A stretch of 26,019 nt of DNA, taken from positions 1 to 26,019 of IMG/VR virus record IMGVR_UViG_3300012936_003521; one strand, written 5' to 3'. The stretch comes from a virus. The notes under the pieces are model-generated. The model did no database searches. It was not told where the DNA came from and was given only the letters and a program-made list of their open reading frames with translations. This document shows, one piece after another, positions 1,507 through 24,927 of this stretch. The number at the start of each line of letters is the position of its first letter. Position 1 is the stretch's first letter. The position numbers and the translations under genes are program-made.

Positions 1507-1511
1507 AACAC

Positions 1512-1519
1512 TATTTATT
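1512..1519 (-). promoter_or_regulatory. Late promoter (AATAAATA), 5 nt before ATG
   Basis: AATAAATA is followed by GTGTT and the ATG of the gp16-like gene. No Shine-Dalgarno fits between. With T4 geometry the transcript would start at the A of the ATG. Confidence 0.55.
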
Positions 1520-1985
1520 ACTTGCGTTTACGAGCTACTCGTTGTTTAGGCTTACGTGGTTTGTTATTTCTGAATATTTGGTCTTCGTTAATGACTTTAA
1601 AACGAATTCCTTTACGTTGACACCATTCTTGTGCCGCTGTCCATTTTGCGGCATTTACGGCAGTTTGAATTGCATCTCCTTGGCTTCTGGCGTTTCTAAG
1701 ACTAGTTTGAGTACTGGGTTTTATCTCAATAAGTTCTACATGATTATGGCCGTCTCGATCTGTGTATTGTATCATAAAGTCAGGAACATAATTGTGATAC
1801 TTTCCGTCTAATGGACTTCTGTAAGGTATCTTGACATTTTCACTTGCCCATTTAGTAATGTTAGGATGAGTATCACACATTCGCATAAATGCTAACTCCC
1901 AACTACTTCTGTAGGTAGGCTCTTTGGAACCAACATATTTTGCACTTTCCTGGACTAGGTATTTGCCTTGCATAAATTTTTTCAT
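1518..1985 (-). CDS. 4: Head completion protein gp4 (PD-(D/E)XK/TnsA-like fold)
   Basis: The 155-aa protein resembles T4 gp4 (gp50/gp65, about 150 aa), which joins the filled head before neck attachment. The visible nuclease-like elements are Glu30 in YRSSWELAFMRMCD, Asp69 in YVPDFMIQY and E87-I-K89 in VELIEIKP, matching the E...D...ExK layout of PD-(D/E)XK/TnsA-type folds. The last 20 residues are strongly basic (KPRKPKQRVARKRK) and fit DNA contact. It starts 3 nt after the stop of the upstream 146-aa gene. The Shine-Dalgarno is weak (AAAGG about 8 nt before ATG), so expression probably depends on the upstream cistron. Family membership is fairly secure. Whether phage gp4 proteins actually cleave DNA is not settled by the sequence. 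Confidence 0.8.
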   Translation of the reverse strand: MKKFMQGKYLVQESAKYVGSKEPTYRSSWELAFMRMCDTHPNITKWASENVKIPYRSPLDGKYHNYVPDFMIQYTDRDGHNHVELIEIKPSTQTSLRNARSQGDAIQTAVNAAKWTAAQEWCQRKGIRFKVINEDQIFRNNKPRKPKQRVARKRK

Positions 1986-1988
1986 AAT

Positions 1989-2429
1989 TTATGCCTTTAT
2001 TAATGTGCTGACTGAACTCTTGGAATTTTTTAGTGGGACTACTAAGTTTACCCTGTTACCAACAGGACGTAATGCATTAATGGCATCATAGGCATCTTTG
2101 GTAATTTTTAATGTATTAGTGGTTAATTCAAAAAATTCAAAAGGATGGATACCTTGTTTTTCTGAAACTTTTAAAAGTACAATACTTAATGCATTAGCAT
2201 TTGCTTCAGAAAATCCTGAACTTTCTAGTCTAAGTTTTACTTGTTCTAAAAGAGGACCATTTAAATTTTGATCTATATCTTCTTTTTTAAAACTTCCTAA
2301 AATTTCTGCTGATGCTTGTGGTAAGGCAAAATCCACTGTGGAATTTTCTAAAAATATTGTAAGTACTTCATTAAGTACCTGATAATTCCTGCTGTTACCA
2401 AATGTTTCGTATAAACTTTGACTGCTCAT
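1989..2429 (-). CDS. Hypothetical phage protein (146 aa) in tail/head gene block
   Basis: The start codon overlaps the stop of the 426-aa tube-like gene by one base (TAATG) and gp4 follows after 3 nt, so this is one polycistron. The sequence is soluble and mainly helical to about residue 115 (NYQVLNEVLTIFLENS; SGFSEANANALSIVLLKVSE), followed by a short strand-rich end (GNRVNLVVPLK). No signal peptide, membrane segment or catalytic motif is visible. Its position between a baseplate/tube-like gene and head completion gp4 suggests a structural or assembly-chaperone role, which is inference from neighbours. I do not recognise the family. Confidence 0.85.
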   Translation of the reverse strand: MSSQSLYETFGNSRNYQVLNEVLTIFLENSTVDFALPQASAEILGSFKKEDIDQNLNGPLLEQVKLRLESSGFSEANANALSIVLLKVSEKQGIHPFEFFELTTNTLKITKDAYDAINALRPVGNRVNLVVPLKNSKSSVSTLIKA

Positions 2430-3709
2430 TATGTACCTCCGTCGTCATCGAAACCAGCACCACCTTCACTGTCACTTCCTGAATCAGGTCTCCAACCTAA
2501 TCCTGTAGCCGCATTATTAATTCCATCTGTAACAACATCACCAAGGTCAACTTGTAAATTTGTATCAGAGTCGACTCCAAATTTACTAAAAATTGTGTCA
2601 TCACCAGGATTTTGTATGCCTTGAACAACCTCATTTGTTAATCCGCCTAACAGAGCATCTTTAACATCTCCACCATTTAATGCGGCTGTTAATCCATTAT
2701 CTAATATTCTGCCAAAAGGACTATCATCAAAAAAGTCTGATACTTTGTCTAAAAAACTACCTGCACCTGAACTTGTGACTTCTTCTCTTGTATCATAAAA
2801 CTCATTGGGTTCTGTAGCAGGTGTGACCATTTGATCACCAAACTGTGTAAACACCTGAGTTGCTCTGGGTCTTTCAACGATTCCTGTAATATCAGTAGGT
2901 TTTTCAGTTGCTACAGGCTTACTGATGTTTCTTGAACCTGGTAGCTCTACACCATCCATTCTTTCAAACCTATCTAAATCTGATTCGCCAAGATCAAAAT
3001 TAAGTGTATCATGTACTGTGAAATACTCATATTGTAAACTTAGATTAAAATCTTTAAATCCGCTATCTGAATAATCTATGTCACCAAAATTTATAGTAGT
3101 AATAACTGGATTAACTAAACTGTACTGAACTCCTTTATCTGCATGATAAAGAATTATATCTATTCTTTCAAAAAAGTTTTTAGAATAACTTGGAGAATAT
3201 CCAAATGCATCACTGTCAAAACCTTTAGATGTACTATCTGTTGCATGTTTAGTTTCGCTATTGTATGCTACAAAACTTTCATGCATCTGCTCAAAAGTAA
3301 CTTCTCTACCAGTCATTTTGTTTGTTGCATCTCTGAAATTATATGTAAAGTATTTCATTAATACAGTAAGCCACTCATTTTGTATTGTGTCAAAAATAGT
3401 TAAATTTATTGGAGCATATTCTCTACCAGTGGTAATAATTCTTTTTCTGTTGAATGAATTTTTTATTTCTGTATTAAATGAAACTTCAGGTAATTGAGCT
3501 GTTCTTATTAATGAGCTTAATCGTGTTCTTAATTCAACACTATCTCCCAAACCTAAAAAATTATCATCCAATAAGGTTCTGTTAGGTACAAAATTTATGT
3601 ACCCTTGGAACTTTTGTCGCGGAGGAGCGACATCTGGTCTGAATTGATAGGCGTTGCGAAAGTCCTTTGCATAGAACCTTCGCCCGCCACCGAATTTAAG
3701 AAACTGCAT
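2429..3709 (-). CDS. Tail-tube-fold structural protein, possibly baseplate tube initiator (gp54/gp48-like)
   Basis: This 426-aa protein has the signature of tail-tube-type proteins. An early strand region (residues about 60-110) contains IRTAQLPEVSFNTEIKNSFN and EYAPINLTIFDT. Later strands (about 195-240) contain VNPVITTINFGDIDYSDSG and NLSLQYEYFTVHDTLNFDL. The 'position of the interaction, then DYSD' pattern also occurs in the gp19 tube gene just downstream of the sheath here (TQVDYSDSDY). After residue about 290 comes an acidic, Gly/Asp-rich tail. It follows gp19 by 18 nt with a GGAG Shine-Dalgarno before the ATG and no promoter of its own. In T4, gp48 and gp54 (about 320-360 aa) cap the baseplate and start the tube, so one of these roles fits. 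A second tube protein is the alternative. Confidence 0.6.
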   Translation of the reverse strand: MQFLKFGGGRRFYAKDFRNAYQFRPDVAPPRQKFQGYINFVPNRTLLDDNFLGLGDSVELRTRLSSLIRTAQLPEVSFNTEIKNSFNRKRIITTGREYAPINLTIFDTIQNEWLTVLMKYFTYNFRDATNKMTGREVTFEQMHESFVAYNSETKHATDSTSKGFDSDAFGYSPSYSKNFFERIDIILYHADKGVQYSLVNPVITTINFGDIDYSDSGFKDFNLSLQYEYFTVHDTLNFDLGESDLDRFERMDGVELPGSRNISKPVATEKPTDITGIVERPRATQVFTQFGDQMVTPATEPNEFYDTREEVTSSGAGSFLDKVSDFFDDSPFGRILDNGLTAALNGGDVKDALLGGLTNEVVQGIQNPGDDTIFSKFGVDSDTNLQVDLGDVVTDGINNAATGLGWRPDSGSDSEGGAGFDDDGGT

Positions 3710-3727
3710 TAAGCACTCCTACTGGTA

Positions 3728-4366
3728 TTAACCTAAAGTAGTAGAGCCTGTACTTACTGTTTCTGGGAATGGATCTCCACCAACTACTCTTCCGTTGACA
3801 TCGTTGTCACCTTCGAAGTGTACTGCGTTATCGTATCTAATGGTCATTATAACCTGGATAGGATCACTTGCCGCATAGTCGGAGTCACTGTAATCAACCT
3901 GTGTTAAAAAACATCCTTCTAAGAACCAAACTTCAGAAGCACCTGCATTGACACCATCTAAAACTTCGATTTGACAATCGAATTTGTAATCACTACCTGA
4001 AGCAGGTGTTGATTGTTGGAAATGGTTTAATTGTCTTTGAACTTGTGCGCCAACAAGTTTAGTTACTTGGTTTTGGATATCGTCCCTAACAGTTAAAGTA
4101 ATTTGTTCCCAAGCATGTTTGCCTTGAACATAGACTCTTGAGTTATAACTATCAATTACTTGCTCTTCATAACTAATTTTTGGTCTTGTTACGTTTTGAA
4201 CGTTTTGTGTTAAAACCTTAGTTTCAGCACTACCACCAAATTGGTTAAGCAAACTAACTCTAAACCTATATTTAAGTTTGGGCATTAATACCCCAGAACC
4301 AGTATTACCGGTTAAGGGTACACCAAATTTACTTTTGGTTTCTGTTGTTGCACTATCTACTGCCAT
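3728..4366 (-). CDS. 19: Tail tube protein gp19
   Basis: The product is the major tube subunit through which DNA passes. It polymerises as rings inside the contractile sheath. At 212 aa it is slightly longer than T4 gp19 (163 aa). Typical elements are the N-terminal entry strand (MPKLKYRFRVSLLNQFGG), the central VTRPKISYEEQVIDSYNSRVYV segment in shorter form (RPKISYEEQ), WEQITLTVRDDIQNQV and the C-terminal strand pair FLTQVDYSDSDY...IQVIMTIRYDNA. It is immediately downstream of the sheath gene but transcriptionally separate: a terminator (4478-4498) lies between them, and its own late promoter (4420-4427) and AGGAG Shine-Dalgarno precede the ATG. This arrangement would let sheath and tube be expressed independently at high level. 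Confidence 0.92.
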   Translation of the reverse strand: MAVDSATTETKSKFGVPLTGNTGSGVLMPKLKYRFRVSLLNQFGGSAETKVLTQNVQNVTRPKISYEEQVIDSYNSRVYVQGKHAWEQITLTVRDDIQNQVTKLVGAQVQRQLNHFQQSTPASGSDYKFDCQIEVLDGVNAGASEVWFLEGCFLTQVDYSDSDYAASDPIQVIMTIRYDNAVHFEGDNDVNGRVVGGDPFPETVSTGSTTLG

Positions 4367-4419: not shown

Positions 4420-4427
4420 TATTTATC
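4420..4427 (-). promoter_or_regulatory. Late promoter (GATAAATA) for tail tube gene
   Basis: GATAAATA lies 53 nt before the gp19 ATG, downstream of the sheath terminator. The leader carries AGGAG 7 nt before the ATG. Confidence 0.75.
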
Positions 4428-4498: not shown

Positions 4499-4516
4499 AA
4501 TAGTTAAATTACTAGA

Positions 4517-7321
4517 TTAACCAGTTTGTCCCAAAGTATTTTGGATTCTGATAGGTATGTAAATAAATTCAACTGCTTTGACTGGCTGTATAGCAACGTC
4601 AATGTGTAATTCATTTCTATCTATTCTTGCTGGTGTATTATTTGAAGTATCACATACTGTGATAAAGTCAAATAGTCCTCTCTGAGCAACAAGTTCGCCA
4701 AGTAGTCTATCAACTACTGATTTTGCGTTTGCTCTTGTTACTTCATCATTAGGCTCAAACAAGAATGGTTTAACTGCGTCATCTAATTGCTCACGTAGGT
4801 AAACAACTAATCTTGACACATTTACTCTATCCAATGCACTTGAAACAGGATTTAGTGTTTTCTGACCAAATACTGCTAGTCCTCTTCCTGGGAAGTTACC
4901 AATTGGGTTTACTTTGTTAATGTAAAGGTTATCTCTTTGTCCTTCACTTAAAGCAACTGGAACATACTCACTACTTGTAGAGTCTAAATAACCTACACTA
5001 GTTGCATTGTTCACTAATCCTCTTTGGAAACCTGCTGGTGCAAACCAAGGGAAAGCCACTTGGTCGTTAAATGCTAGTGTTCTCAAAGCCATATGTGAGG
5101 CAGGAACCATAACACTTGAACCGTCTAGGTTTGTTGAAAGTCCTGAAGGATAGTAAACTGCGGCGTATGGATCACTTGATACTAGACCATCTTCTCCATT
5201 TTCACCTGCATTGTTTGAGTTTGTTGCCCAATTTTTAGTACTTGTAGCATCTGATTTTAATCTAAATGGTGAATCAATAACACTGAATACAGTATTTTTT
5301 CTATCTGTACCTAAAGTAATCATTTCATCTGCCAATTCAGGATATCCAGGAACAGCCATGATATTAAATCTGTTTGTTTCATTTCTGATATCTTGATTAG
5401 ATGTTACTGCTGATTGTAATTGTTTTACAACAACTGCTCTCTGAGCCTTTCTCAACATGTATGGTGAACCATCTGATCTATTACCACTGTGGTCTAACCA
5501 TAAACCTGTTGATGAATCATATTTCTTAACATTACCACCACTTAATAATTTGTTCCATGCTAACATATTTGCAGGGAATAAATTTGATGATACTGCTGAA
5601 CTAATTAAAGCATTACTTGAACTAGAACTTCTAAAGTCATTAAATATAATTCCATCTGGTGATACTTGGTCTGTGTTATCAACTAACACCCAAGCACTAG
5701 AGGCTCTTTTGTAAATTACTGGATAATTTTCTAAGTCACTTCCGTCAACCCAAATATCCCCATCTACTAATGAACTTACGCCATCAGATTGTAGAGTTGG
5801 TGCTGAACCTTTAACTTGAACGTCACCTGTGTAAGGTTCCCATCCAGTTGAAGGATGATTGTAAAGTATATCTACTTTTTCAGTACTTACTGAACTATCA
5901 TACCATAATGTACCGTCTGCTAATGTACCTGTAATAGCACTATTTTTAGCAGTAAAGCTCAATGCTTCAAAGTTACTGTAAGCATCTGCACTAGAAAGAT
6001 TTAAGTTAGAAGCACCAAATCCTGAAACGTTTCCGTCTATAACTAAAACGTCAGTACCTGCACTATTAACAAACTTAATTTTTCCTGAGTTGTTTGAAGC
6101 AACAACTGTGTTTGCAAAAGTTAAAGTACTATTTGAAGCCGCTAATGCTGTATTGATATCTTGAACCATATCATCAACACTTGCGTTTCCGTCTGAATCA
6201 CCATCAGTACTAAATGTTACATCAACGTTTGACCCACTGTTAATTCTTAATGAAATACTTACTTTTCCGCTGTGACCAGTTAATGAAATATCTGTGTCAC
6301 CAAGTGCGGCTGTACTCTCAAATTCAACAGTTGAATTACCATTGTGTCTTTTAGGTGTAAAAGTTGCTTTACCGTCTGCTTCGTTGGCACCTGATCCAGA
6401 AACATCAAAGTATATATCTCCAACTTCTGGGTTTGCACCATGTCTTGCACTACTAAATGCACTTGCACTAATAATAGAACTTTCAACTGTTTGAGTAGTA
6501 AACTGTGCTGTTGCACTATTATATAATTTTAAAGACCAAACAGAACCGTCGTTAAATGCATTAAGTTGTAGGAAAACATCTCCTGATACTAATGCACCAC
6601 CACCTTGTCTTGCAACTGGTAAATCGCTGTGATCACCAATTTGAAAATCTGCTGAACTTTTTGCTGTTGACCATGCTGTTGTGCCTATAAGGTTCCAAGC
6701 ACTTGAACTTGTTTTTTCATAAACTTTAAATGTGGAAAGTGTATTTCCTGAAACATCAAAGTAAACAACTGCAAAGTCGTTTAATGTACCGTAACCTGTT
6801 TTAGGTGTACCGTCTGATGCTAGATCTGTTGAAGCAGGAACTTTTACAGTTTGCCTTACATATTTAGAACCATCATATTTTTTGATACCAACTACAGTAC
6901 TTGCTGTATCTAACCAATATGAACCATTTGCTGGTGCAGTTGTTGGTGCTGTTGCTGTAGGATCTAGATCTGCTAAATCAATATCAGCTCTAAGTACATA
7001 CGCACTATTGGCTACACCAAGAAAACTGTAAGCGGCTAGTAATCCATATTCATTTTGTTCGTGTCCGTGTAACTGAGTTCCTCCACTTGATTTAAAGACA
7101 GGATTACCATAATTTTGTAATAGTTCTCTCTGACTAGAAATTCTGTAGAGTTTATCAGCGGTTGCTGAAGTTGTATATTGTGCTGTACCTGAGCCATCTG
7201 GACTACTCTTGTCTTGAGCAGTTGCAATAACTATAAGTGGTACTGAACCTGTACCAGCAGGAGAGTAAAAACTTTCGTCTGATACACTTACACTAACTCC
7301 AGGTGAAACTAATGTTGCCAT
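4517..7321 (-). CDS. 18: Tail sheath protein gp18 with large inserted surface region
   Basis: This is the contractile sheath subunit of the tail. The N-terminal region (residues 1-115) begins ATLVSPGVSVSVSDESFYSP and includes AAYSFLGVANSAYVLRA, typical of sheath N-termini. The conserved C-terminal core (about 640-934) contains NRFNIMAVPGYPELADEMI, GNFPGRGLAVFGQKTL, SRLVVYLREQLDDAVKPFLF and the closing AVEFIYIPIRIQNTLGQ. At 934 aa it is far longer than T4 gp18 (659 aa). The excess is between about 125 and 620 and contains several related modules (GSYWLD, GDIYFDV, GTLWYD, GDIWVD followed by a Tyr/Lys strand and a Trp). It is monocistronic: a late promoter with a 40-nt leader and AGGAG lies upstream, and a strong terminator follows. 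Confidence 0.95.
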   Translation of the reverse strand: MATLVSPGVSVSVSDESFYSPAGTGSVPLIVIATAQDKSSPDGSGTAQYTTSATADKLYRISSQRELLQNYGNPVFKSSGGTQLHGHEQNEYGLLAAYSFLGVANSAYVLRADIDLADLDPTATAPTTAPANGSYWLDTASTVVGIKKYDGSKYVRQTVKVPASTDLASDGTPKTGYGTLNDFAVVYFDVSGNTLSTFKVYEKTSSSAWNLIGTTAWSTAKSSADFQIGDHSDLPVARQGGGALVSGDVFLQLNAFNDGSVWSLKLYNSATAQFTTQTVESSIISASAFSSARHGANPEVGDIYFDVSGSGANEADGKATFTPKRHNGNSTVEFESTAALGDTDISLTGHSGKVSISLRINSGSNVDVTFSTDGDSDGNASVDDMVQDINTALAASNSTLTFANTVVASNNSGKIKFVNSAGTDVLVIDGNVSGFGASNLNLSSADAYSNFEALSFTAKNSAITGTLADGTLWYDSSVSTEKVDILYNHPSTGWEPYTGDVQVKGSAPTLQSDGVSSLVDGDIWVDGSDLENYPVIYKRASSAWVLVDNTDQVSPDGIIFNDFRSSSSSNALISSAVSSNLFPANMLAWNKLLSGGNVKKYDSSTGLWLDHSGNRSDGSPYMLRKAQRAVVVKQLQSAVTSNQDIRNETNRFNIMAVPGYPELADEMITLGTDRKNTVFSVIDSPFRLKSDATSTKNWATNSNNAGENGEDGLVSSDPYAAVYYPSGLSTNLDGSSVMVPASHMALRTLAFNDQVAFPWFAPAGFQRGLVNNATSVGYLDSTSSEYVPVALSEGQRDNLYINKVNPIGNFPGRGLAVFGQKTLNPVSSALDRVNVSRLVVYLREQLDDAVKPFLFEPNDEVTRANAKSVVDRLLGELVAQRGLFDFITVCDTSNNTPARIDRNELHIDVAIQPVKAVEFIYIPIRIQNTLGQTG

Positions 7322-7361: not shown

Positions 7362-7369
7362 TATTTATC
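7362..7369 (-). promoter_or_regulatory. Late promoter (GATAAATA) for tail sheath gene
   Basis: GATAAATA lies 40 nt before the gp18 ATG. The leader carries AGGAG. Four GTATT units at 10- and 20-bp steps lie just upstream of it (7378-7422). Confidence 0.75.
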
Positions 7370-8084: not shown

Positions 8085-8846
8085 TTATCCTATTACAAAG
8101 TTTAACGGAATGTTGCCCTCTTCCATATTATGGATACCATCTTTAAGCATTTGCATTTCATTTTGTGCTTCACCCTTTAATGTTTCACCGTTCAACTGAA
8201 TTGCTCCACCGGCTCCAGGTAATCCACTTGCATACTTACTTCTGGCTTCTCCCAACATATATTTAGATTGTGCTAATGCATATGAACCTAGCCAATTACT
8301 AGCATATACATCAGTTAAAAGAATTGACTCTGGAACAAAATTATAAACACCCACAGCAATATCTTCTTCATGTCTGATATTTCTTAAAATTTTAAGTTGC
8401 TTGGTATTTCTATTCCAGATAAAATTGTATTCACTACCAAAAATTCTACCAATAGTTTCTTTGTATTGTGCAAAAGCATCAAATACAGCAAGTCCACCAA
8501 TTTGTCCTGCTTGTAGCATATACATATTGTTAAATGCTACGTCAAATGGATCAAAGTTTGTTCCACCGCCACTATTAGTACCAATACCTCTTCTGTACAA
8601 ACGTCTTACTTCTTGTACTTCATCTGGTAAAGTGTATTCAGTTACGTCTTTTTGTGTTTGGAAAAATATGATACTTTCTTCTACACTACCTGCACTTAAC
8701 TGTCTGTAGATAGCAATAGCCTTATCAACAGCAACATCATAATGTTCTCTGTCTAATTCAACATCTACCATTCCGTCACCAAGACGAAGTTGTAGCTCTG
8801 TTATGAGTTCTTCTCGACTTTTATATCCTATCTGATCTTTTGGCAT
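8085..8846 (-). CDS. Putative neck/head-completion protein, gp13-like
   Basis: This 253-aa soluble protein has a layout I associate with neck/connector proteins of marine T4-like phages. Helical N-terminus: SREELITELQLRLGDGMVDV, then a helix ending YRQLSAGSVEESIIFF. Beta region: DVTEYTLPDEVQEVRRLYRR. C-terminus: GLPGAGGAIQLNGETLKGEA followed by NIPLNFVIG. The hydrophobic middle (SWLGSYALAQSKYMLGEA) looks like a packing helix rather than a membrane span. It is the first gene of its operon (dNMP kinase follows after 1 nt). GATAAATA ends 5 nt before the ATG with no Shine-Dalgarno. T4 gp13 is 309 aa and partners gp14. Here gp14 is 7.7 kb away on the other strand. Another head-tail connector remains possible. 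Confidence 0.5.
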   Translation of the reverse strand: MPKDQIGYKSREELITELQLRLGDGMVDVELDREHYDVAVDKAIAIYRQLSAGSVEESIIFFQTQKDVTEYTLPDEVQEVRRLYRRGIGTNSGGGTNFDPFDVAFNNMYMLQAGQIGGLAVFDAFAQYKETIGRIFGSEYNFIWNRNTKQLKILRNIRHEEDIAVGVYNFVPESILLTDVYASNWLGSYALAQSKYMLGEARSKYASGLPGAGGAIQLNGETLKGEAQNEMQMLKDGIHNMEEGNIPLNFVIG

Positions 8847-8851
8847 ACTAC

Positions 8852-8859
8852 TATTTATC
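8852..8859 (-). promoter_or_regulatory. Late promoter (GATAAATA), 5 nt before ATG
   Basis: GATAAATA, GTAGT, then the ATG of the gp13-like gene. No Shine-Dalgarno can fit. Confidence 0.65.
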
Positions 8860-10028: not shown

Positions 10029-10253
10029 TCAATCTTCAAACATATCAGGGTCTGGATTAACATACATCATTTTTATTGCTAACGGCCAGTTATCGAACCC
10101 TATTATATCATTTTTATCTTTAAGCACACTTTTTTGCTTAAAGAACTGAGTAATACTTATCATTCCGATGAATTTTCCTGCTTTTTCACCTGCTTTATAC
10201 ATAAAATATGAATTTGCAAGTATAAAAAGTAAAAATAAAATATAGATATCCAT
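10029..10253 (-). CDS. Small single-span membrane protein (74 aa)
   Basis: Residues 1-18 (MDIYILFLLFILANSYFM) form one transmembrane helix, followed by the positively charged YKAGEKAGKF. This predicts N-out/C-in topology with a soluble cytoplasmic tail of about 50 residues ending in an acidic PDPDMFED. An AGGAG lies about 10 nt before the ATG. The gene heads a two-gene unit behind a sigma70-like promoter (10279-10307), suggesting expression before the late genes. A role in membrane remodelling, superinfection exclusion or inner-membrane anchoring is conceivable but not shown by any motif. Confidence 0.8.
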   Translation of the reverse strand: MDIYILFLLFILANSYFMYKAGEKAGKFIGMISITQFFKQKSVLKDKNDIIGFDNWPLAIKMMYVNPDPDMFED

Positions 10254-10278: not shown

Positions 10279-10307
10279 AGTTTAACAAAAACTTATTTAT
10301 TTGTCAA
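10279..10307 (-). promoter_or_regulatory. Sigma70-like promoter, early type
   Basis: On the minus strand a perfect -35 TTGACA (10307-10302) is separated by 17 nt from TAAACT (10284-10279), which matches four of six -10 bases. Together with the AGGAG further down, this gives a normal leader for the 74-aa gene. An AATAAATA occurs inside the spacer, so a late activity at the same place cannot be excluded. Confidence 0.65.
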
Positions 10308-13377: not shown

Positions 13378-13385
13378 TATTTATT
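13378..13385 (-). promoter_or_regulatory. Late promoter (AATAAATA), conventional leader
   Basis: AATAAATA overlaps the stop of the 385-aa gene. A 29-nt leader with AGGAG leads to the amidinotransferase ATG at 13348. This allows that cassette to be expressed separately from the aminotransferase. Confidence 0.55.
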
Positions 13386-14538: not shown

Positions 14539-15410
14539 TAACAGTCACCTAACCACTCACTCACACAAACTCTGTAATTACCAGTTATGCCTCTGTTAAA
14601 TTCTGAGTGTCTTATATCATCACCTAATCCAAAAATAACTGTATCTGTCCAAACTAAATCATTTTGGTGACATATTTCTTCATACTGTTCTTTGTAATTA
14701 TTCCAATTATAATCAGTACTAAAATTTTCCATGTATTGGATTCCTAAAGCCATACTATAATTGTTAGCCATTTTTACTTCGTTTAACATACTAATACCAT
14801 CATCTGAATAGTCTCTTGTCCAACGAATTCCTACTCTGTGATTTTCTAATGTAAAAAACGGCTTACTTAAACTGCATGTAACTTCTTTAACACATGGAAA
14901 TTCGTCTAGGTCTATATGCACATTTTTTGCTATACCCCAATATGCTAAATCTAAACACACAGGAATATTATGAACATTACATATTCTTAATATATTTTCA
15001 AAATCAGGATGTATGCAACCAAAGTCACTAAATGGAGCACTTACTAAAAGAGCATGTAAATCAGGACCTCTTAATGTTCCTTCTAAATGATGGGGATAAT
15101 TTATATATTTAAATTCTACATGTTTTCCTAGACAAGCATGGTATTGAAAGTCACCAATTAGACAATTAATTTCTCTGTCCTTACTGTGTTTTAAAATAAA
15201 TTGATCAAATGTTTGACTTGTTCCTTGTGTATAGTCAGCAAAAGCAAATTTATCAAGGCCTTTAATTGATTTTGATTCTGAAAAGTTCATCCATTCTGTC
15301 CAAACTTTTGCATATTCATCTAGAGTAGGAGTATGCAAATTAGACAACTTATTGTGAAAATTTAATATTTCACTATTACGAATGGGCCTTGCTCCTCTAA
15401 CTGCTGACAT
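14538..15410 (-). CDS. PLP-dependent aminotransferase-like protein (fold type I)
   Basis: At 290 aa it is short for the family (normally 350-420) but keeps its core in order. A Gly/Ser/Thr loop lies at 59-67 (DYTQGTSQT). A NPTG-equivalent is PFSDFGCIHPDFENIL. The PLP-pyridine Asp154 and Tyr157 are in IPVCLDLAYWG. The Schiff-base Lys183 is in VTCSLSKPF, and a phosphate-binding Arg196 in HRVGIRW. A final NYRVCVSEWLG supplies an Arg in the place of the carboxylate-binding Arg. The missing part is mostly the C-terminal small domain. It starts 5 nt after GATAAATA with no Shine-Dalgarno and is coupled to the next gene. It may transaminate a keto-sugar or keto acid for the amidinotransferase cassette, or may have become a non-canonical enzyme. 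Confidence 0.75.
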   Translation of the reverse strand: MSAVRGARPIRNSEILNFHNKLSNLHTPTLDEYAKVWTEWMNFSESKSIKGLDKFAFADYTQGTSQTFDQFILKHSKDREINCLIGDFQYHACLGKHVEFKYINYPHHLEGTLRGPDLHALLVSAPFSDFGCIHPDFENILRICNVHNIPVCLDLAYWGIAKNVHIDLDEFPCVKEVTCSLSKPFFTLENHRVGIRWTRDYSDDGISMLNEVKMANNYSMALGIQYMENFSTDYNWNNYKEQYEEICHQNDLVWTDTVIFGLGDDIRHSEFNRGITGNYRVCVSEWLGDC

Positions 15411-15415
15411 AAATC

Positions 15416-15423
15416 TATTTATC
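15416..15423 (-). promoter_or_regulatory. Late promoter (GATAAATA), 5 nt before ATG, leftward
   Basis: GATAAATA, GATTT, then the ATG of the aminotransferase-like gene. It forms a divergent pair with the promoter at 15452-15459. Confidence 0.65.
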
Positions 15424-15451
15424 AGTTAAAATATGTGTTAATTTATATACT

Positions 15452-15459
15452 GATAAATA
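15452..15459 (+). promoter_or_regulatory. Late promoter (GATAAATA), 5 nt before ATG, rightward
   Basis: GATAAATA, TTGGC, then the ATG of the radical SAM gene. This position decides the start at 15465. Confidence 0.65.
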
Positions 15460-15464
15460 TTGGC

Positions 15465-16547
15465 ATGCCTCAATTTACACAACCTAAAAGTGTTCATGTA
15501 GAACTCACAGATAAATGTAATGCAGAATGTCCTGTTTGTGTTAGGCGTTTAGGTGGAGGTAAATTAAACTCTATTATTCAAAATATAGAACTAGGAGTGG
15601 ATTATTTTAAAAAGTTATTAGGATTTGAATTTTGTTCAAATGTTGAACATTGGCAATTTTGTGGTACCAAAGGTGATCCAATAGCATGTACAGAATTAAT
15701 TGACATTATAAACTTTTTAAAAAATTGTAATCCAAATACAATGTTTTCTATTCATACAAATGGAGGTTTTAGATCTGAAAAGTGGTGGACACAATTAGGA
15801 AACCTTTTAAAAGACACAGAGTCATTTGTTGTTTGGGGAATAGATGGCCTTGAAGATACAAATCATATACATAGAAAAAATGTAAAATGGAAAAAGTTAT
15901 GGGCAAATTTAAATGCTTTTAACGAAACTGGTGCCAAAAGTACCTGGCAATTTTTAGTATTTGAACACAACAAACATCAAATTAAATCTGCAATAGATTT
16001 GTGTAAACAAATGAATATAACATTTGAGTCTAAAGAAGCATTTGGTTTTGGCATTAAAGAAAAAGACGGCATAAAGGAAATATATCCTATAGAAGTATTT
16101 GATAAGGAAGGTAATTTTGAATACTCTATTAATCCTCATAATAGTAATGAACCAAATGTAAAAGTATTAGAGTTAGACCCTGAAAAAAGAAAATTTACAA
16201 CAAATGAGTATAGATTATACCCTGAATATATGAATTTAATAAAAGGACAATATGAAATAGACTGTAAAGTAGGAAAAAATACATCTGATTTGTATATAGA
16301 TTGTGACGGTGCGTTGTTGCCTTGCTGTTTTATTGGTGCTGGAATATATACATCTCCATTAGATAGGCAATTACAAACACAATTTTCCGATAGAAAACAG
16401 TTTATACCCACAGCAGAATACACATATAAACAGATTTTCCAAAATAAGTACTACACCGATACTATTCATAAAGGTATTTCAGGCGATTTACCTGAACAAC
16501 CAAAATATACAGTTAAGTGCATGGAAACTTGTGGCAAATGTCAGTAA
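15465..16547 (+). CDS. Radical SAM enzyme with C-terminal Cys cluster (SPASM-like)
   Basis: I start at the ATG at 15465 (MPQFTQPKSVHVELTD), because an in-frame GTG at 15435 would put the GATAAATA motif inside the gene. CxxxCxxC is at Cys18, Cys22 and Cys25 (DKCNAECPVC) and would hold the SAM-cleaving [4Fe-4S] cluster. A GGE-like element follows (FCGTKGDPIA). The second half carries extra Cys: DCKVGK, DGALLPCCFIG and the C-terminal KCMETCGKCQ, consistent with auxiliary clusters. The length is 360 aa. It is divergent from the aminotransferase gene across a 54-bp gap. Substrate unknown. SPASM proteins often act on peptides, but sugars and other small molecules occur too. It heads the plus-strand block before neck gene 14. 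Confidence 0.88.
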   Translation: MPQFTQPKSVHVELTDKCNAECPVCVRRLGGGKLNSIIQNIELGVDYFKKLLGFEFCSNVEHWQFCGTKGDPIACTELIDIINFLKNCNPNTMFSIHTNGGFRSEKWWTQLGNLLKDTESFVVWGIDGLEDTNHIHRKNVKWKKLWANLNAFNETGAKSTWQFLVFEHNKHQIKSAIDLCKQMNITFESKEAFGFGIKEKDGIKEIYPIEVFDKEGNFEYSINPHNSNEPNVKVLELDPEKRKFTTNEYRLYPEYMNLIKGQYEIDCKVGKNTSDLYIDCDGALLPCCFIGAGIYTSPLDRQLQTQFSDRKQFIPTAEYTYKQIFQNKYYTDTIHKGISGDLPEQPKYTVKCMETCGKCQ

Positions 16548-16555: not shown

Positions 16556-16563
16556 GATAAATA
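16556..16563 (+). promoter_or_regulatory. Late promoter (GATAAATA), 7 nt before ATG of gp14
   Basis: GATAAATA, GTATATT, then ATG. This is the only one of the short-gap class that differs from 5 nt. No Shine-Dalgarno is present. Confidence 0.65.
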
Positions 16564-16570
16564 GTATATT

Positions 16571-17641
16571 ATGCCAAGAATAAGTTTATGGAATCCAGTT
16601 AAAACACATGACTACAACTTTGTAGACAGAGTTGTTGGCGAGCATATCTATGCAGGTGGCACTGGAGTTCATGTACATAAGTATATGGGAGTACATGGTG
16701 ACGATGACGGAAAAGATCCTACTCGTCCATCTCCTGAAGCCGGAAATAATACAGAAGTCTTTATACAGGATTTATTATTTTTAGAAAACAGAGATAGAAA
16801 ATACGATAAAGATATTTATGAATTACGTGGGCAATATAATATAGCAGACAACGATGCATTTGATTTAACACAATTTGGTATGTTCTTAGCAAACGACCAA
16901 GTGTTTATGAATTTCCATATAGAAAGCATGGTAGAATCAATAGGCAGAAAACTTATGCCTGGTGACGTTTTAGAGTTGCCACATTTGAGAGACGACTTAC
17001 TACTTGGTAGCGATGATGCTATAAACAGATTTTATGTAGTAACAGATGGTGCAAGGCCAAGTGAAGGATATGATCCTAGATGGTGGCCACATCTTTGGAG
17101 AGTAAAATTAGGACCTATAACAGATTCACAAGAATACAGAGATATACTAGGTACTGGTGAAGAGGAAGAAGATTTAAGAAACCTAATTAGTACATACGCA
17201 AATGAAATTAATATAAATGATAAAATATTAGAACAAGCAGAACGTGATGTTCCATTTGATCCGCAATATAGAGATACTGCACATTTATACTTTGATGAAG
17301 AGGTTCCTGATAAACCTGCTGTAGGTTTAGCATTTGGCGGTAATGATGGTCAACCTATAAATGGATTAAGTGTAGTTGGAAGTGGGGATAGTTTCCCAAC
17401 AAGTGGTACAAATGATGGAGACTTTTTCCTTAGAACAGATTTTTCACCAAATAGATTGTTTAAAAAATCAGGATCAAGATGGTTAAATGTTGGCTCAGAT
17501 GAAAGAGGAAATTGGAGTGCGGCAAATAGAATATTGTCTACATTTATTAATAATGAAAATATTACAACTAACTCTGATGGTGAAACACAAAGTGAAAGAG
17601 TGCCTTTAAGTAAGGTTGTAAAACCACAAACGGATAATTAA
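16571..17641 (+). CDS. 14: Neck protein gp14
   Basis: The product is a neck component that closes the filled head and joins it to the tail. The characteristic stretches are IQDLLFLENRDRKYDKDIYE, LTQFGMFLANDQVFMNFHIE, IGRKLMPGDVLELPHLRDDL and RWWPHLWRVKLGPITDSQEY, which I associate with gp14 of T4-like marine phages. The length (356 aa) exceeds T4 gp14 (256 aa). The additional C-terminus includes TNDGDFFLRTDFSPNRLFKK, a beta module that recurs in the sheath and gp15 here (about residues 279-307). GATAAATA ends 7 nt before the ATG, slightly further than at other such starts. The gene is on the opposite strand from the sheath and tube, unlike T4's collinear 13-14-15-18-19 order. Confidence 0.75.
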   Translation: MPRISLWNPVKTHDYNFVDRVVGEHIYAGGTGVHVHKYMGVHGDDDGKDPTRPSPEAGNNTEVFIQDLLFLENRDRKYDKDIYELRGQYNIADNDAFDLTQFGMFLANDQVFMNFHIESMVESIGRKLMPGDVLELPHLRDDLLLGSDDAINRFYVVTDGARPSEGYDPRWWPHLWRVKLGPITDSQEYRDILGTGEEEEDLRNLISTYANEININDKILEQAERDVPFDPQYRDTAHLYFDEEVPDKPAVGLAFGGNDGQPINGLSVVGSGDSFPTSGTNDGDFFLRTDFSPNRLFKKSGSRWLNVGSDERGNWSAANRILSTFINNENITTNSDGETQSERVPLSKVVKPQTDN

Positions 17642-19341: not shown

Positions 19342-19766
19342 TGAAGACCACTGCGGCAGGAGTTGTTTTTCTTGCCAAAGATACTGGTAGGTGTTTATTA
19401 CAACTCAGAGAAGGCACAAAACGATTTAACCATACCTGGGGGTTTTGGGGCGGTATTATTGAAAAAGGTGAAACTCCTTACCAGTGTATTCAAAGAGAGT
19501 TAGAAGAAGAAATAGGGTTCGTTCCAGAACTTGAAAAACTAAATCCAATAGATGTATATCAAAGTAAAGATAAAAATTTTTACTATTACAGTTTTGTTTA
19601 TGTAATTGAAAAAGAATTTTTACCAGAACTTAATAGCGAAAGTTGTGGTTATGCATGGGTAAATATAGGGCAATGGCCCAAACCATTACACAATGGATCT
19701 AAAATAACATTGTATAATAATGGTGGTACTGATAAACTCCATACAATTCTAGAAATTAATTCCTGA
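19341..19766 (+). CDS. Nudix hydrolase (141 aa)
   Basis: The Nudix box is intact at residues 38-60: G, five residues, E44, seven residues, then RELEEEIGF (GX5EX7REUXEEXGU). Surrounding strands (TTAAGVVFLAKDT; RCLLQLREGTKRF; TWGFWGG) resemble MutT/ADP-ribose-type Nudix enzymes, so it would hydrolyse a nucleoside diphosphate derivative (oxidised dNTP, ADP-sugar or similar) in the cytoplasm with Mg2+. The first in-frame start would be 18 nt upstream, inside gp15. I use the ATG at 19341 overlapping gp15's TAA (TAATG). It is a metabolic gene placed in the neck operon. Substrate unassigned. Confidence 0.9.
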   Translation: MKTTAAGVVFLAKDTGRCLLQLREGTKRFNHTWGFWGGIIEKGETPYQCIQRELEEEIGFVPELEKLNPIDVYQSKDKNFYYYSFVYVIEKEFLPELNSESCGYAWVNIGQWPKPLHNGSKITLYNNGGTDKLHTILEINS

Positions 19767-19772
19767 TAAATA
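19765..19772 (+). promoter_or_regulatory. Late promoter (GATAAATA), 5 nt before ATG
   Basis: GATAAATA overlaps the Nudix stop codon and is followed by TACAC and the ATG of the 210-aa gene. Confidence 0.65.
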
Positions 19773-19777
19773 TACAC

Positions 19778-20410
19778 ATGAGCAAAGGCGAAATCATAGA
19801 TTTTGAGGTCTTGCGAATACAGAACGATCTGGACCAATTTCAGCGGACAAAAACCATTCCACATACACTATTAGAAGGCACATATGATATCGAGGAGATA
19901 ATGAATGTGTACTATAAAAAACTATCTTCTAAACACCAAAAATTAGCAGATAAGATTTATAAAGAGTATCTGGAAAAAATTGAAGAAAATATTGATACAC
20001 TGAAAAAGGCTATGAAAAAAGATTATGCCAGAGTTGTAAAAAATATGGCTACTGAGCATGAGAGTTTTTATTTTAAAGAAATAATGAACTTATATAGGCC
20101 TAGTATAAATCCAGTTAGAGCTCTGTATTACCAGACTCGTGATGTGACCAGGAGGTACAATCCTGAGCACCCGTATCACTATTGGTTAATAGATCTTGTG
20201 TCAGATTTAGAATTTAACAATATAATTTTAGATGCTTTAAGAAAAGATATTGGAAAACTAGAACGTATTATTAAAAGATATTATTTTCCTTTAGTTAAAA
20301 AAACTGAGGGTGTGCCTTTAGAAATGTTTCATGCCAAGCAACAACTTAAAGATTTTAGACATTACTATAAATTTTTTAGAGGTGTAAAAGATTGGCAACC
20401 TGATGAATAA
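19778..20410 (+). CDS. Hypothetical helical protein (210 aa)
   Basis: GATAAATA ends 5 nt before this ATG and overlaps the Nudix stop (TGA at 19764-19766). The protein is soluble, Lys/Tyr/Glu-rich and almost all helical: HQKLADKIYKEYLEKIEENI (about 55-75), KKAMKKDYARVVKNMATEHE, then a Tyr/Arg/His-rich centre (RALYYQTRDVTRRYNPEHPY) and another helix with IGKLERIIKRYYFPLVKK. No known motif is visible. The gene is the last on this strand and its TAA directly abuts the stop of the converging minus-strand gene with no terminator-like hairpin. Function unknown. Confidence 0.82.
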   Translation: MSKGEIIDFEVLRIQNDLDQFQRTKTIPHTLLEGTYDIEEIMNVYYKKLSSKHQKLADKIYKEYLEKIEENIDTLKKAMKKDYARVVKNMATEHESFYFKEIMNLYRPSINPVRALYYQTRDVTRRYNPEHPYHYWLIDLVSDLEFNNIILDALRKDIGKLERIIKRYYFPLVKKTEGVPLEMFHAKQQLKDFRHYYKFFRGVKDWQPDE

Positions 20411-21037: not shown

Positions 21038-21648
21038 ATAAAATTTCCTGCAAGTATATCATATTCTTTTGTATTTATAAATTTTAAAGATACAATTAAT
21101 CTATGTGATTTATTTTCTGTGTTAAAAGCACTATGCCAACTATTTTTTGAAACCCTAAATAAAAATAATGTACCTGGATTCCCACCAACTGTTTGCATAC
21201 TTTCTTTTACACACTCATTATTTGAATTGTGTCCATAAATATTTGTGCCAAATGTATATTTTGGATTACAATAAATTATTCCTCTTACTGGAGGCATATA
21301 ATGAATATCTTCAATATCATAGTCATTATGTATTGTTAAATTTTGTCCTTTTGATATCATATTAGTTACAGGAAGAATTTTATCCACATTAACATTCCAA
21401 ACATTATTAACTAATTCGCAAATATGATTTTGTTTTTCCTGTATTAATTTTTCAATATTGTAATATTCTGTTACATATCTAGGCCCATCTGCTGGATGGT
21501 TTTCTGAAATATCTTTATATGTACTTAAATAATTTTCAAACATAACTTCATTATCTAACCCTGCTATAAAATCTTCCACTATTATATGTTCAAAAGGCTG
21601 AATATTAATATGTTGTCTGTTTATTTTATCTATATTTTGAAGTATCAT
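21034..21648 (-). CDS. 2OG-Fe(II) oxygenase (copy A of tandem pair)
   Basis: A 204-aa paralogue of the following gene. His107 and Asp109 (LTIHNDYDI), His172 (SWHSAFNT) and Arg183 (SHRLIVSLK) form the metal and co-substrate sites. Shared blocks with copy B include DGPRYV, NMIS.GQNL, PPVRGIIYCNPKYTFGTNIY and ESMQTVGG.PGTLFLF. The region between HxD and the second block differs most (DIEDIHYM against GKHETPNN), as expected if substrates diverged. The start lies in a 4-nt ATGA overlap with the end of the cyclase gene. Expression therefore appears to depend on the promoter at 23720-23727. Confidence 0.87.
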   Translation of the reverse strand: MILQNIDKINRQHINIQPFEHIIVEDFIAGLDNEVMFENYLSTYKDISENHPADGPRYVTEYYNIEKLIQEKQNHICELVNNVWNVNVDKILPVTNMISKGQNLTIHNDYDIEDIHYMPPVRGIIYCNPKYTFGTNIYGHNSNNECVKESMQTVGGNPGTLFLFRVSKNSWHSAFNTENKSHRLIVSLKFINTKEYDILAGNFI

Positions 21649-23714
21649 TTACTTGTTTTTCTTTCAACTCCGTCCCAATCACCTTTTGGCATAGGTTGTT
21701 TTATTCTTTCTGAATATAATTCAGTCAAAACAGGATTCCAATTATGTTGCTTCATTATATCTATTTGATGTGCAACTGTACTCCATTCTCTGTTTTGATA
21801 TGCATCTACCATTCTATTTACAGTTCTTGCCTCTTTATGGTCTCTAAGTATGGTATAAATTGTTACTGGTGCTGTTTGGCCTTTTACTGCTATTTTATCT
21901 AATGTAACTAAATTTTCAGGTGCTTTAATTTGTTTTAGAGTATGCTCTGTAAACATAAAGAACACACCATACTCTTTTGTTTGTGCTTCTAATCTAGCCG
22001 CCAAGTTTACACTATCCCCTAATACAGTATAATCAAAACGTTGATTACTTCCCATGTTACCTACAACTGCATCACCTGTATTAATACCTATACCAACTCC
22101 TAACTCCATTAACCCATCTGCTTTTAATTCTTTATTAAGTTCTGCTAATTTTACTTCCATTTCCTGTGCTGTTTCTATTGCCAACTGAGCATGATTTTCT
22201 ATATCAAGTGGTGCTCCCCAAATAGCCATCAAGGCATCACCAATGTATTTGTCTATTGTGCCTTCTTTTTGCATAACCAAATCAGTCATTGGTGTCATAT
22301 ATCTGTTAATAAGTTTACCTAAACCTTGTGGGTCTGTTTTAAATTGTTCTGATATAGGAGTAAATCCACGAATATCTGAAAACAGGTATGTCATTGTTTT
22401 TGTATCACCACCTAACTGTAATAGCTCAGGATTCTTTTGTAATTTTTTAACCATTGCAGGAGCAAGGTAATGTTCAAATTGTTTTTTAATTTGCTCACGT
22501 AATTTGTATTGTTTGTAGAAATTATTAAATGCCGCCTGTGTAAACACTAAAAATCCTGATAGCACAGGGAATGTAGCATCTAATAAAACCAAATCATTAG
22601 TATATTTGTAAACACTGAAATATGCCATACCTCCCAATACACTCAAACTTATAGGTGCTGTCCATAGTAAAGGCAATTTATATACTGCAAGTGCTATAAG
22701 AATCATAGTCAATAAAGCAACGACAAGCTCTGTCACAGCACTTAATTGGCTTCTTGTTATGTTACTGCCATCTATAAAGTTTTGTAGCATGTGTGCTTGT
22801 ATATGCTGTGGATATAAGTTTCCTCTAGGTGTAGGCACAGGGTTTGCAATCCCTTCAGCAGTAACACCTATTATTACCCATTTACCCATAAGATCAGGAA
22901 TGCTTTCTGCACCCTCATATTCTATTTCTTCAAACTGATTATTAAATCGTATATAAGCAGTACCGTTAGGTTGTGTTACTATAGGGTCAAAAGGCGGTAC
23001 TGCAACTTCCTGTATTCCTATTTCAGATGTTTTTATCATATAACTGGGTTTGCCAGTATGTACTCTCAACATCTCGACTGCAAAACTAGGATATATCTTA
23101 TCTCCAACTGTTATAGCAAGTGGATAAGTTCTTGTTTGATTATCAGGCTGTGGTGCAGATGCTAAAACACCTTTACCATTACTTACTACTTCTAACATAG
23201 GAACATTAGTTACAAGGTTAGGCCATGTAAGCAAATAATCTTTTGCAGGTACAGGTCCTATTGTGCCAGTTCCTATATGAGGGCCTGTTGACTTTATGCC
23301 TTTTACACTTGGTGTTTGACTTAAAATATTAAAATTAACAGGATTTTTTCTAGCACCTGGTACATTTACTAAGTTTTGATTTAAAATACTAGCAAAACTA
23401 TCATCTCCCTGAAACCTGTCTTTCTCAGGAAACATAATAGTCCATCCTACAGGGCCACTATTTTTCATAGCAACATCAACAAGCATTTGAGCATAGTATT
23501 GTCTTGGGAAAGGATATTGCCCATACTTTGCTAAACTTTTTTCGCCAATGTTTAATATTACAACATTTTCACTTTGTTGTATTTCATCTAATTGTTGATA
23601 ACTGTCAAAAACTTGACCACGTAAACTTTGTAATGGCGTAGGGTCTACTATTCTTAAGCCAAGTAAAAGTGCAATAGATAAGACCACTGCATAACCACTA
23701 TATAACCATTTCAT
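21645..23714 (-). CDS. CHASE2-type class III adenylate/guanylate cyclase, membrane sensor
   Basis: This 689-aa protein makes a cyclic nucleotide in response to a periplasmic signal. Order: one N-terminal membrane helix (about 5-20); periplasmic CHASE2-like domain (about 25-320; VVILNIGEKSLAKYGQYPFP, YPLAITVGDKIYPSFAVEML, LMGKWVIIGVTAEGI); three membrane helices (about 327-396); class III catalytic domain (about 440-625). Catalytic residues are intact: metal Asp447 (FSDIRGF), Lys489 and Asp493 (IDKYIGDALMAIWG), Asp567, Asn570 and Arg574 (YTVLGDSVNLAARLE). The K and D at the purine positions favour ATP, as in bacterial CHASE2 cyclases. GATAAATA ends 5 nt before the ATG. The gene is overlap-coupled to two oxygenase genes. 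It reads like a cellular gene acquired by the phage, but its promoter is phage-type. Confidence 0.92.
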   Translation of the reverse strand: MKWLYSGYAVVLSIALLLGLRIVDPTPLQSLRGQVFDSYQQLDEIQQSENVVILNIGEKSLAKYGQYPFPRQYYAQMLVDVAMKNSGPVGWTIMFPEKDRFQGDDSFASILNQNLVNVPGARKNPVNFNILSQTPSVKGIKSTGPHIGTGTIGPVPAKDYLLTWPNLVTNVPMLEVVSNGKGVLASAPQPDNQTRTYPLAITVGDKIYPSFAVEMLRVHTGKPSYMIKTSEIGIQEVAVPPFDPIVTQPNGTAYIRFNNQFEEIEYEGAESIPDLMGKWVIIGVTAEGIANPVPTPRGNLYPQHIQAHMLQNFIDGSNITRSQLSAVTELVVALLTMILIALAVYKLPLLWTAPISLSVLGGMAYFSVYKYTNDLVLLDATFPVLSGFLVFTQAAFNNFYKQYKLREQIKKQFEHYLAPAMVKKLQKNPELLQLGGDTKTMTYLFSDIRGFTPISEQFKTDPQGLGKLINRYMTPMTDLVMQKEGTIDKYIGDALMAIWGAPLDIENHAQLAIETAQEMEVKLAELNKELKADGLMELGVGIGINTGDAVVGNMGSNQRFDYTVLGDSVNLAARLEAQTKEYGVFFMFTEHTLKQIKAPENLVTLDKIAVKGQTAPVTIYTILRDHKEARTVNRMVDAYQNREWSTVAHQIDIMKQHNWNPVLTELYSERIKQPMPKGDWDGVERKTSK

Positions 23715-23719
23715 ATCTA

Positions 23720-23727
23720 TATTTATC
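23720..23727 (-). promoter_or_regulatory. Late promoter (GATAAATA), 5 nt before cyclase ATG
   Basis: GATAAATA, TAGAT, then the ATG of the nucleotide cyclase gene. It follows the terminator at 23733-23755 by 5 nt, so the cyclase and oxygenase unit is transcriptionally insulated. Confidence 0.7.
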
Positions 23728-23732
23728 GTGAA

Positions 23733-23755
23733 AAACCTCCCTAAAAGGGAGGTTT
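23733..23755 (-). terminator. Intrinsic terminator before cyclase unit
   Basis: A 9-bp stem (AAACCTCCC/GGGAGGTTT) with a 5-nt loop is followed on the minus strand by T-rich sequence. It would end transcripts from the KOW-like gene. Confidence 0.85.
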
Positions 23756-23841
23756 CATTCTAGTCTGCTCGTTTTAAAGTCGTCGAGGTCGACTGGCAAA
23801 TTATGGCTTTTAGTTTTAAGAGTCTCTAAACCACCGGGCAA
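23755..23841 (-). other. Possible 28-codon ORF in GC-rich intergenic stretch (or structured RNA)
   Basis: Minus-strand bases 23853-23758 are open for 32 codons. The peptide has clearly biased composition (RFPGLPGGLETLKTKSHNLP, then VDLDDFKTSRLE) and stops at TGA 23757-23755, at the edge of the terminator. The only in-frame start candidate is a TTG at 23841, with no convincing Shine-Dalgarno, and stops lie upstream. The stretch is far more GC-rich than its surroundings and includes the inverted repeat CCGGattgcCCGG (23836-23848). It could be the remnant of a gene, a leader/attenuator RNA, or a true tiny protein. I cannot choose. Confidence 0.3.
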
Positions 23842-23863
23842 TCCGGGAAATCGCTCTATCTAA

Positions 23864-24121: not shown

Positions 24122-24150
24122 AGTTACTCCTAATTTCTAAATATACATAT

Positions 24151-24178
24151 ATTATACAATATATCTATTATTTGTCAA
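24151..24178 (-). promoter_or_regulatory. Near-consensus sigma70 promoter for the KOW-like gene
   Basis: On the minus strand TTGACA (24178-24173) and TATAAT (24156-24151) are both perfect, separated by 16 nt. The start would fall about 7 nt further on, giving a leader of about 20-25 nt with AGGAG before the ATG at 24121. This is the strongest host-type promoter in the window. Confidence 0.85.
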
Positions 24179-24197
24179 GTACTTTAGGTAACTATTT

Positions 24198-24914
24198 TCA
24201 GTCTACAAAGGCACGTTCTAGCATGAAATCTCCCATTTCACCTGTATTGCCTTCTTCAAAATTTTGATATGAGAATGTTTGCCTGCATTCTTTATTTAAT
24301 GATGGGGAGCCACATACCATAATAGCATCTAACTCTTTATTTAATTCTCTACCTAAAACAGGTTGTATATACATCCAAAACCTACCAGTTCTAAAATATT
24401 TTTCTCTGGTTACAGAAGGAATATATGTAAACGGCATCATACCTGATATTTCTGACATAGTATCTTTGTATGTAATTTCTGCTACTTCCCTTACAGTATG
24501 AAATAAATATACATTCTCAAATCTTTCATATGTCTCAGGATCTTTTGCTATACTAACAAAAGGTGCTACACCTGTGCCTGTTGCTAGAAGAATTAAATTT
24601 TTCTTGGGTGTTAAATAATCTACAACTAAACTACCTGTGCATTTTGGATTTACTAATATTTCATCTCCAATCTGTATGTTTTGCAGTTTACTTGTTAAAG
24701 GTCCTTTTTCAACCTTAATACTAAGAAACTCTAAATAGTCATCATAACAAGTGCTAACAATACTATATGCTCTCATAATATTTTTAGGTTCGAGTTCTAA
24801 ACCTATCATGCAAAACTCACCGTTTTTGAATCTTAAACTTTTGTCTCTGGTTGTTTTAAAACTGAATAGTCTATCTGAATAATGTTTTACTTCTATAATT
24901 TTTTCTTTCAGCAT
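24198..24914 (-). CDS. Ferredoxin/flavodoxin-NADP+ reductase (Fpr-like)
   Basis: This FAD enzyme exchanges electrons between NADPH and ferredoxin/flavodoxin in the cytoplasm. The start chosen is the ATG at 24914 (MLKEKIIEVKHYSD), not the ATG 33 nt upstream, because AATAAATA ends 5 nt before it. Motifs: FAD-binding RAYS at 48-51, GPLTSKL at 71-77, NADP-binding LLATGTGVAPF at 109-119, VCGSPSL at 200-206 and the C-terminal GDFMLERAFVD typical of alpha- and gammaproteobacterial Fpr. The length (238 aa) is slightly below the usual 250-258. The preceding secreted-protein gene ends just before it. It could supply reductant for phage metal enzymes, such as the radical SAM enzyme or ribonucleotide reductase, but that link is inference. 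Confidence 0.92.
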   Translation of the reverse strand: MLKEKIIEVKHYSDRLFSFKTTRDKSLRFKNGEFCMIGLELEPKNIMRAYSIVSTCYDDYLEFLSIKVEKGPLTSKLQNIQIGDEILVNPKCTGSLVVDYLTPKKNLILLATGTGVAPFVSIAKDPETYERFENVYLFHTVREVAEITYKDTMSEISGMMPFTYIPSVTREKYFRTGRFWMYIQPVLGRELNKELDAIMVCGSPSLNKECRQTFSYQNFEEGNTGEMGDFMLERAFVD

Positions 24915-24919
24915 ATCAG

Positions 24920-24927
24920 TATTTATT
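24920..24927 (-). promoter_or_regulatory. Late promoter (AATAAATA), 5 nt before ATG
   Basis: AATAAATA, CTGAT, then the ATG of the ferredoxin-NADP+ reductase gene. It decides the start at 24914. Confidence 0.55.

Follow-up and report, generated by a model that had tools for sequence, protein, structure and literature searches.

T4 late promoters are classical, and the leaderless messages of phages are, to our knowledge, those of single genes. The T4 late promoter TATAAATA occupies positions -13 to -6 (PMC1524935), and in leaderless mRNAs the 5'-terminal AUG is recognised by 70S ribosomes (PMC9031893). Leaderless genes with a '-10 region adjacent to ORF' (open reading frame) arrangement are known in Deinococcus-Thermus (PMC12340547), and a survey of pelagimyophages found late-promoter prediction unsuccessful (PMC7029224). 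The present analysis concerns an uncultivated T4-like myovirus known from a 26-kb viral record (IMGVR_UViG_3300012936_003521; its whole length of 26,019 nt is termed the window below), and in particular its late-promoter motifs, whose ATAAATA core sits upstream of late (virion) genes. The position of these motifs relative to start codons makes it very likely that in this phage and its relatives the gp55-type late mRNAs include a genuine leaderless class, predicted to exist beside late mRNAs led by a Shine-Dalgarno (SD) sequence.

A fixed distance between late promoters and start codons

The window holds 21 NATAAATA late-promoter motifs, and seven of them are followed by an ATG at a distance of exactly 5 nt. 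Given 21 ATAAATA motifs, 0.39 would be expected at any one offset (P = 7e-8 for seven), and the full pattern RATAAATA-N5-ATG is observed seven times as against 0.06 expected from 100 dinucleotide shuffles, the largest of which gave 1; the reversed-pattern control has no matches in the window. The first-pass annotation had quoted the seven sites, at the ATGs 1506, 8846, 15410, 15465, 19778, 23714 and 24914, together with their spacers, as well as a further site with a 7-nt spacer before the ATG at 16571, and all of these are present as described. Its observation that the 5-nt spacers hold no SD likewise stands, with the promoter filling -13 to -6 and the spacers themselves being SD-free. The candidate leaderless and near-leaderless promoters are as follows:

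1507..1519, minus strand: leaderless promoter, AATAAATA + GTGTT, at the ATG of gene 1018-1506 (phrog_16202, unknown function)
8847..8859, minus strand: leaderless promoter, GATAAATA + GTAGT, at the ATG of gene 8085-8846 (head-tail adaptor Ad2, phrog_211)
15411..15423, minus strand: leaderless promoter, GATAAATA + GATTT, at the ATG of gene 14538-15410 (unknown); divergent to 15452..15464
15452..15464, plus strand: leaderless promoter, GATAAATA + TTGGC, at the ATG of gene 15465-16547 (radical SAM)
16556..16570, plus strand: near-leaderless promoter, GATAAATA + GTATATT (7 nt), before gene 16571-17641 (virion structural protein, phrog_11591)
19765..19777, plus strand: leaderless promoter, GATAAATA + TACAC, at the ATG of gene 19778-20410
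23715..23727, minus strand: leaderless promoter, GATAAATA + TAGAT, at the ATG of gene 21645-23714 (CHASE2-adenylate/guanylate cyclase)
24915..24927, minus strand: leaderless promoter, AATAAATA + CTGAT, at the ATG of gene 24198-24914 (NAD/FAD-binding oxidoreductase)

The 5-nt peak also persists in related genomes, a check that had been proposed with the first-pass annotation. Within 80 IMG/VR loci encoding relatives of the window's gp15-like protein, 228 of 464 ATAAATA motifs have an ATG at exactly 5 nt, with about 9 at a typical other distance and, on either side of the peak, 12 at 4 nt and 26 at 6 nt; 20 other permutations of the ATAAATA 7-mer do not exceed 12% at any offset in these loci. 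Relatives of the near-leaderless gene 16571 have exactly 5 nt in 25 cases and a near spacing in 10. A 250-kb related contig (G001) has 27 of its 101 motifs at this distance, hereafter gap 5 (P = 7e-23, zero control matches), where 27 ATG stand against 2 GTG/TTG start codons; its recognisable late promoters comprise 26 leaderless and 36 leadered versions (approximately 40% leaderless). The SAR11 phage HTVC008M has 9 of 45 motifs at gap 5 (P = 2e-7), while Mosig has 8 gap-5 sites and Melnitz 4, with zero in the control. Further, an unguided scan of hexamers by distance upstream of ORF starts recovers TAAATA at gap 5 as the strongest signal, above the SD hexamers, in both G001 (30 seen vs 0.5 expected) and HTVC008M (12 vs 0.3), while the same scan in T4 places TAAATA at gap 28.

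The class is not universal among T4-like phages. T4 and the cyanophages lack it, with 1-3 gap-5 sites per genome (T4 2/65, Syn9 1/38, S-PM2 2/59). Three further IMG/VR sets, gathered around major-capsid queries of the G001, HTVC008M and Syn9 types, show a weak signal in the G001 capsid relatives (10/263), a strong one in the HTVC008M-like set (70/359) and no class in the Syn9-like set (7/303 at gap 5). The counts in PA5oct (8/145) and a Salicola phage (10 vs 8 control matches) are weak. Alphaproteobacterial hosts were considered as the cause of the class and rejected, as Phosso, Atu_ph07 and Cr30 are without it.

Three side observations pertain to these sites and genomes. In the Stenotrophomonas phage RAS14 (OP752703), 7 of 59 ATAAATA motifs have an ATG at 5 nt, six of them with a pyrimidine at -1 (P = 9e-5), a suggestive pattern by which this distant cultured phage may possibly carry the same leaderless class. 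In HTVC008M (NC_020484), the hexamer TATATT is over-represented immediately upstream of the ATG (gap 0; 10 vs 0.4). The 54-bp intergenic region 15411-15464 of the window, with its two candidate leaderless promoters back to back serving the radical SAM gene and gene 14538, has near-palindromic flanks (ATCAGT ... ACTGAT).

Leadered late genes and the authenticity of the start codons

The window additionally contains late genes of the conventional kind. Five of these, at 992, 4366, 7321, 13348 and 25935, had been reported in the first-pass annotation with leaders of 26-53 nt bearing GGAG or AGGAG, which is confirmed here, and the gene at 10253 is an additional member:

1019..1026, minus strand: leadered promoter, GATAAATA, 26-nt leader with GGAG, gene 282-992
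4420..4427, minus strand: leadered promoter, GATAAATA, 53-nt leader with AGGAG, gene 3728-4366 (tail tube)
7362..7369, minus strand: leadered promoter, GATAAATA, 40-nt leader with AGGAG, gene 4517-7321 (tail sheath)
10294..10301, minus strand: leadered promoter, AATAAATA, 40-nt leader with AGGAG, gene 10029-10253
13378..13385, minus strand: leadered promoter, AATAAATA, 29-nt leader with AGGAG, gene 12287-13348 (amidinotransferase-like by eye, phrog_25854)
25986..25993, minus strand: leadered promoter, GATAAATA, 50-nt leader with AGGAG, gene 25639-25935

That there are two translation classes, as had been proposed, is supported by orthologues in which one and the same ATG is preceded in some by ATAAATA-N5 and in others by an SD. 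Among the orthologues of gene 14538, 23 have ATAAATA-N5 and 15 are without the motif but with an SD, and these labels, when placed on the protein tree, show three changes. Gene 8085 keeps ATAAATA-N5 in 8 of 9 relatives; in the relative L028 the promoter is kept, ATC stands in place of the ATG, and there is instead a 23-nt leader with GGAG. Because orthologues use the same ATG behind either signal, and given the pattern in L028, the leaderless ATGs are very probably genuine starts. Gene starts in uncultivated phages are predictions, a circumstance that favours the alternative of misassigned ATGs with the true starts lying downstream behind an SD. However, this alternative is scarcely credible, as the orthologues carry a well-placed SD before the very same ATG and all nine leaderless ATGs of HTVC008M are the GenBank-annotated starts. 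In Mosig, both sites in the inspected stretch agree with the annotated starts.

The further suggestion that the leaderless class consists mostly of metabolic genes does not hold in either the window or HTVC008M. The set in the window comprises the genes for the head-tail adaptor, the phrog_16202 protein, two proteins without a family match, the radical SAM protein, the cyclase and a flavin reductase; the near-leaderless gene 16571 is structural, and the amidinotransferase-like gene (12287), the sugar dehydratase gene and the dNMP kinase gene fall outside the class. The HTVC008M class includes the genes for baseplate, tail tube cap, end-protector and tape-measure proteins, in addition to a curli gene and those for an oxygenase and a transcriptional regulator.

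As a whole, the window encodes a tail sheath, a tail tube, a gp15-like sheath stabiliser, a head-tail adaptor, a dNMP kinase and several extra metabolic genes. No near match to it was found among named phages, and a genome scan with the reductase gene, aimed at the phage host, gave only 2 distant proteobacterial matches (44-45% identity). The product of the cyclase gene (21645-23714, minus strand), a CHASE2-adenylate/guanylate cyclase, has FSDIRGFT and YIGDALMAIWG stretches that by eye resemble intact metal-binding motifs; it is kept in about 20 relatives and shows 36% identity to the annotated cyclase of HTVC008M. It would be a second-messenger enzyme common to these phages and placed behind a late promoter.

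The predicted transcription start and its alternatives

With the motif at -13 to -6 as in T4, a 5-nt spacer would place +1 on the A of the ATG. The base directly before the ATG is a pyrimidine at all seven leaderless sites of the window and at 26 of 26 in G001, as opposed to 68 of 159 SD-led G001 starts (Fisher P = 4e-9); over a pool of 352 sites, spanning 55 protein families and 84 different spacers, a -1 pyrimidine is in the majority in 54 of the 55 families. Leadered late promoters, which are free of any constraint from an ATG, have their highest pyrimidine-purine step at positions 5/6 after the motif in the window relatives (0.66), the cyanophage set (0.55) and T4 (0.42), and the leadered consensus of the window group reads T-A-T-A at positions 5-8, one base off T-ATG. 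As this initiator step lies equally far from the motif in both promoter classes, the predicted +1 falls on the ATG independently of any assumption carried over from T4. The original claim that the late promoter positions the mRNA start at the ATG thus finds support in the initiator register, a line of evidence drawn from sequence.

Four observations weigh against this reading. First, among the leadered promoters, set B has an equal peak at 7/8 and the HTVC008M-like set is slightly higher at 2/3, with 5/6 standing out in both. Second, 6- and 7-nt spacings occur, and the leader could be 1-2 nt at some sites. Third, 18 of the 26 G001 leaderless genes lie behind a same-strand ORF ending within 60 nt, and read-through from upstream could cover them. 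Fourth, the beginning of the coding sequence in leaderless genes is neither richer in A nor more weakly folded, the comparison yielding no difference.

The spacing variants bear on the possibility that the late promoter is real and gives a leader of 1-3 nt, or several adjacent start bases, such that translation is near-leaderless. Orthologues with 6- or 7-nt spacings (e.g., 16571 with 7 nt, and 12 relatives of 19778) and the second pyrimidine-purine step at 7/8 in the leadered sets A and B are in its favour. Nevertheless, the peak is sharp at 5 (228 vs 12 at 4 and 26 at 6), and the -1 base is almost always a pyrimidine at the 5-nt register only, which renders a general class of short leaders quite unlikely.

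The upstream ORFs of the 18 G001 genes would accord with a different scenario, in which the transcripts come from farther upstream, translation depends on coupling or an A/U-rich enhancer, and the ATAAATA at -12 either acts in translation or stands there by chance. This is highly improbable in view of the presence of the same motif 20-50 nt before leadered late genes, its interchangeability with the SD in orthologues, and divergent pairs such as 15410/15465 that have no upstream gene. Moreover, a terminator parts the cyclase gene from upstream transcripts:

23731..23752, minus strand: intrinsic terminator, CCTCCCTTTTAGGGAGG-TTTTT, T-run ending 16 nt before the cyclase ATG

This element (fold of -16 kcal/mol, z = -4.4) was found by a stem search and was not listed by a simple terminator scan; G001 has a different terminator at the equivalent place. 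With the T-run of the window's terminator ending 16 nt from the ATG, a transcript initiated beyond it has room for no more than about 16 nt of leader, in which there is no SD.

Under the preferred reading of a leaderless late class, the ATAAATA motifs would be T4-type late promoters read by the host RNA polymerase with a gp55-like sigma factor. Transcription would begin on the sixth base after the motif. For a sizeable share of the late genes this base coincides with the A of the ATG, and their mRNA would accordingly begin pppAUG, with neither leader nor SD. Its 5'-terminal AUG would be recognised directly, probably by 70S ribosomes, and the remaining late genes would keep leaders of 20-50 nt with an SD. 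The simplest guess regarding the benefit is compactness, in that such promoters may fit into the stop codon of the preceding gene. Leaderless promoters do often overlap the end of that gene, and in the window stop codons fall within or next to the motif at 1518 and 19766: the promoter 1507..1519 overlaps the upstream stop codon (1518), the upstream ORF ending 11 nt before the ATG, and the TGA stop of the upstream NUDIX gene (19766) lies inside the promoter 19765..19777.

A gp55 homologue is encoded in G001 at 119248-120105 (E = 8e-8 in a single-sequence search, and then recovered by a profile that includes it); the window is a fragment without that gene. The homologue (L109:19248-20000 + L110:1-105) has 286 aa, about 100 aa more than T4 gp55, with the extra residues near the N-terminal part. 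The phage ribosomal protein S21 was considered as an aid to leaderless translation and rejected: it is found in HTVC008M, PA5oct and two rhizobial jumbo phages and is absent from G001, and therefore does not track the leaderless class. G001 has no initiator tRNA, its tRNAs being only Ala and Thr. A bolder extension pairs the late sigma switch with a translation switch, whereby ribosomes would be shifted to leaderless initiation late in infection and the leaderless class would form a separately timed or boosted regulon; this appears doubtful, if conceivable.

Comparison with known systems

A search of openly accessible papers found no earlier report of leaderless late mRNAs in T4-like phages. 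The T4-type late promoter and the ORF-abutting leaderless layout are each known, and it is their apparent combination for which no report was found. If the prediction is true, widespread marine T4-like phages, including SAR11 phages, make a large part of their late mRNAs leaderless, amounting to genome-wide leaderless translation by a phage that also uses the SD. This could account for the reported failure to detect late promoters in pelagimyophages, and would supply a simple rule for finding late genes and correcting start codons in marine viral contigs. HTVC008M and Mosig would then be cultured systems for studying how ribosomes share leaderless and SD messages.

The closest known system, the T4 late promoter with gp55, gp33 and gp45, has the same motif core and the same expected start six bases on, and shares gp55 by way of the G001 homologue. 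T4 differs in that its ATGs lie mostly 21-29 nt downstream with an SD, and no open frame of at least 40 codons starts at gap 5; additionally, the first motif base is mainly G in the present phages as opposed to T in T4. The pelagimyophages HTVC008M, Mosig and some relatives share the class, in contrast to the cyanophage genomes with only 1-3 such sites. The Deinococcus-Thermus genes have the same layout, with the core promoter abutting the ORF; there, however, it is cellular genes that are concerned, whereas here it would be a phage late class coexisting with an SD class. The leaderless mRNAs of lambda cI, mycobacteria and Caulobacter are alike in having a 5'-terminal AUG without an SD, with 70S initiation to be expected, a state that in the present phages is predicted from sequence. 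Finally, while the cases of the lambda cI type are single genes, approximately 40% of the recognisable late promoters of G001 are predicted to be leaderless.

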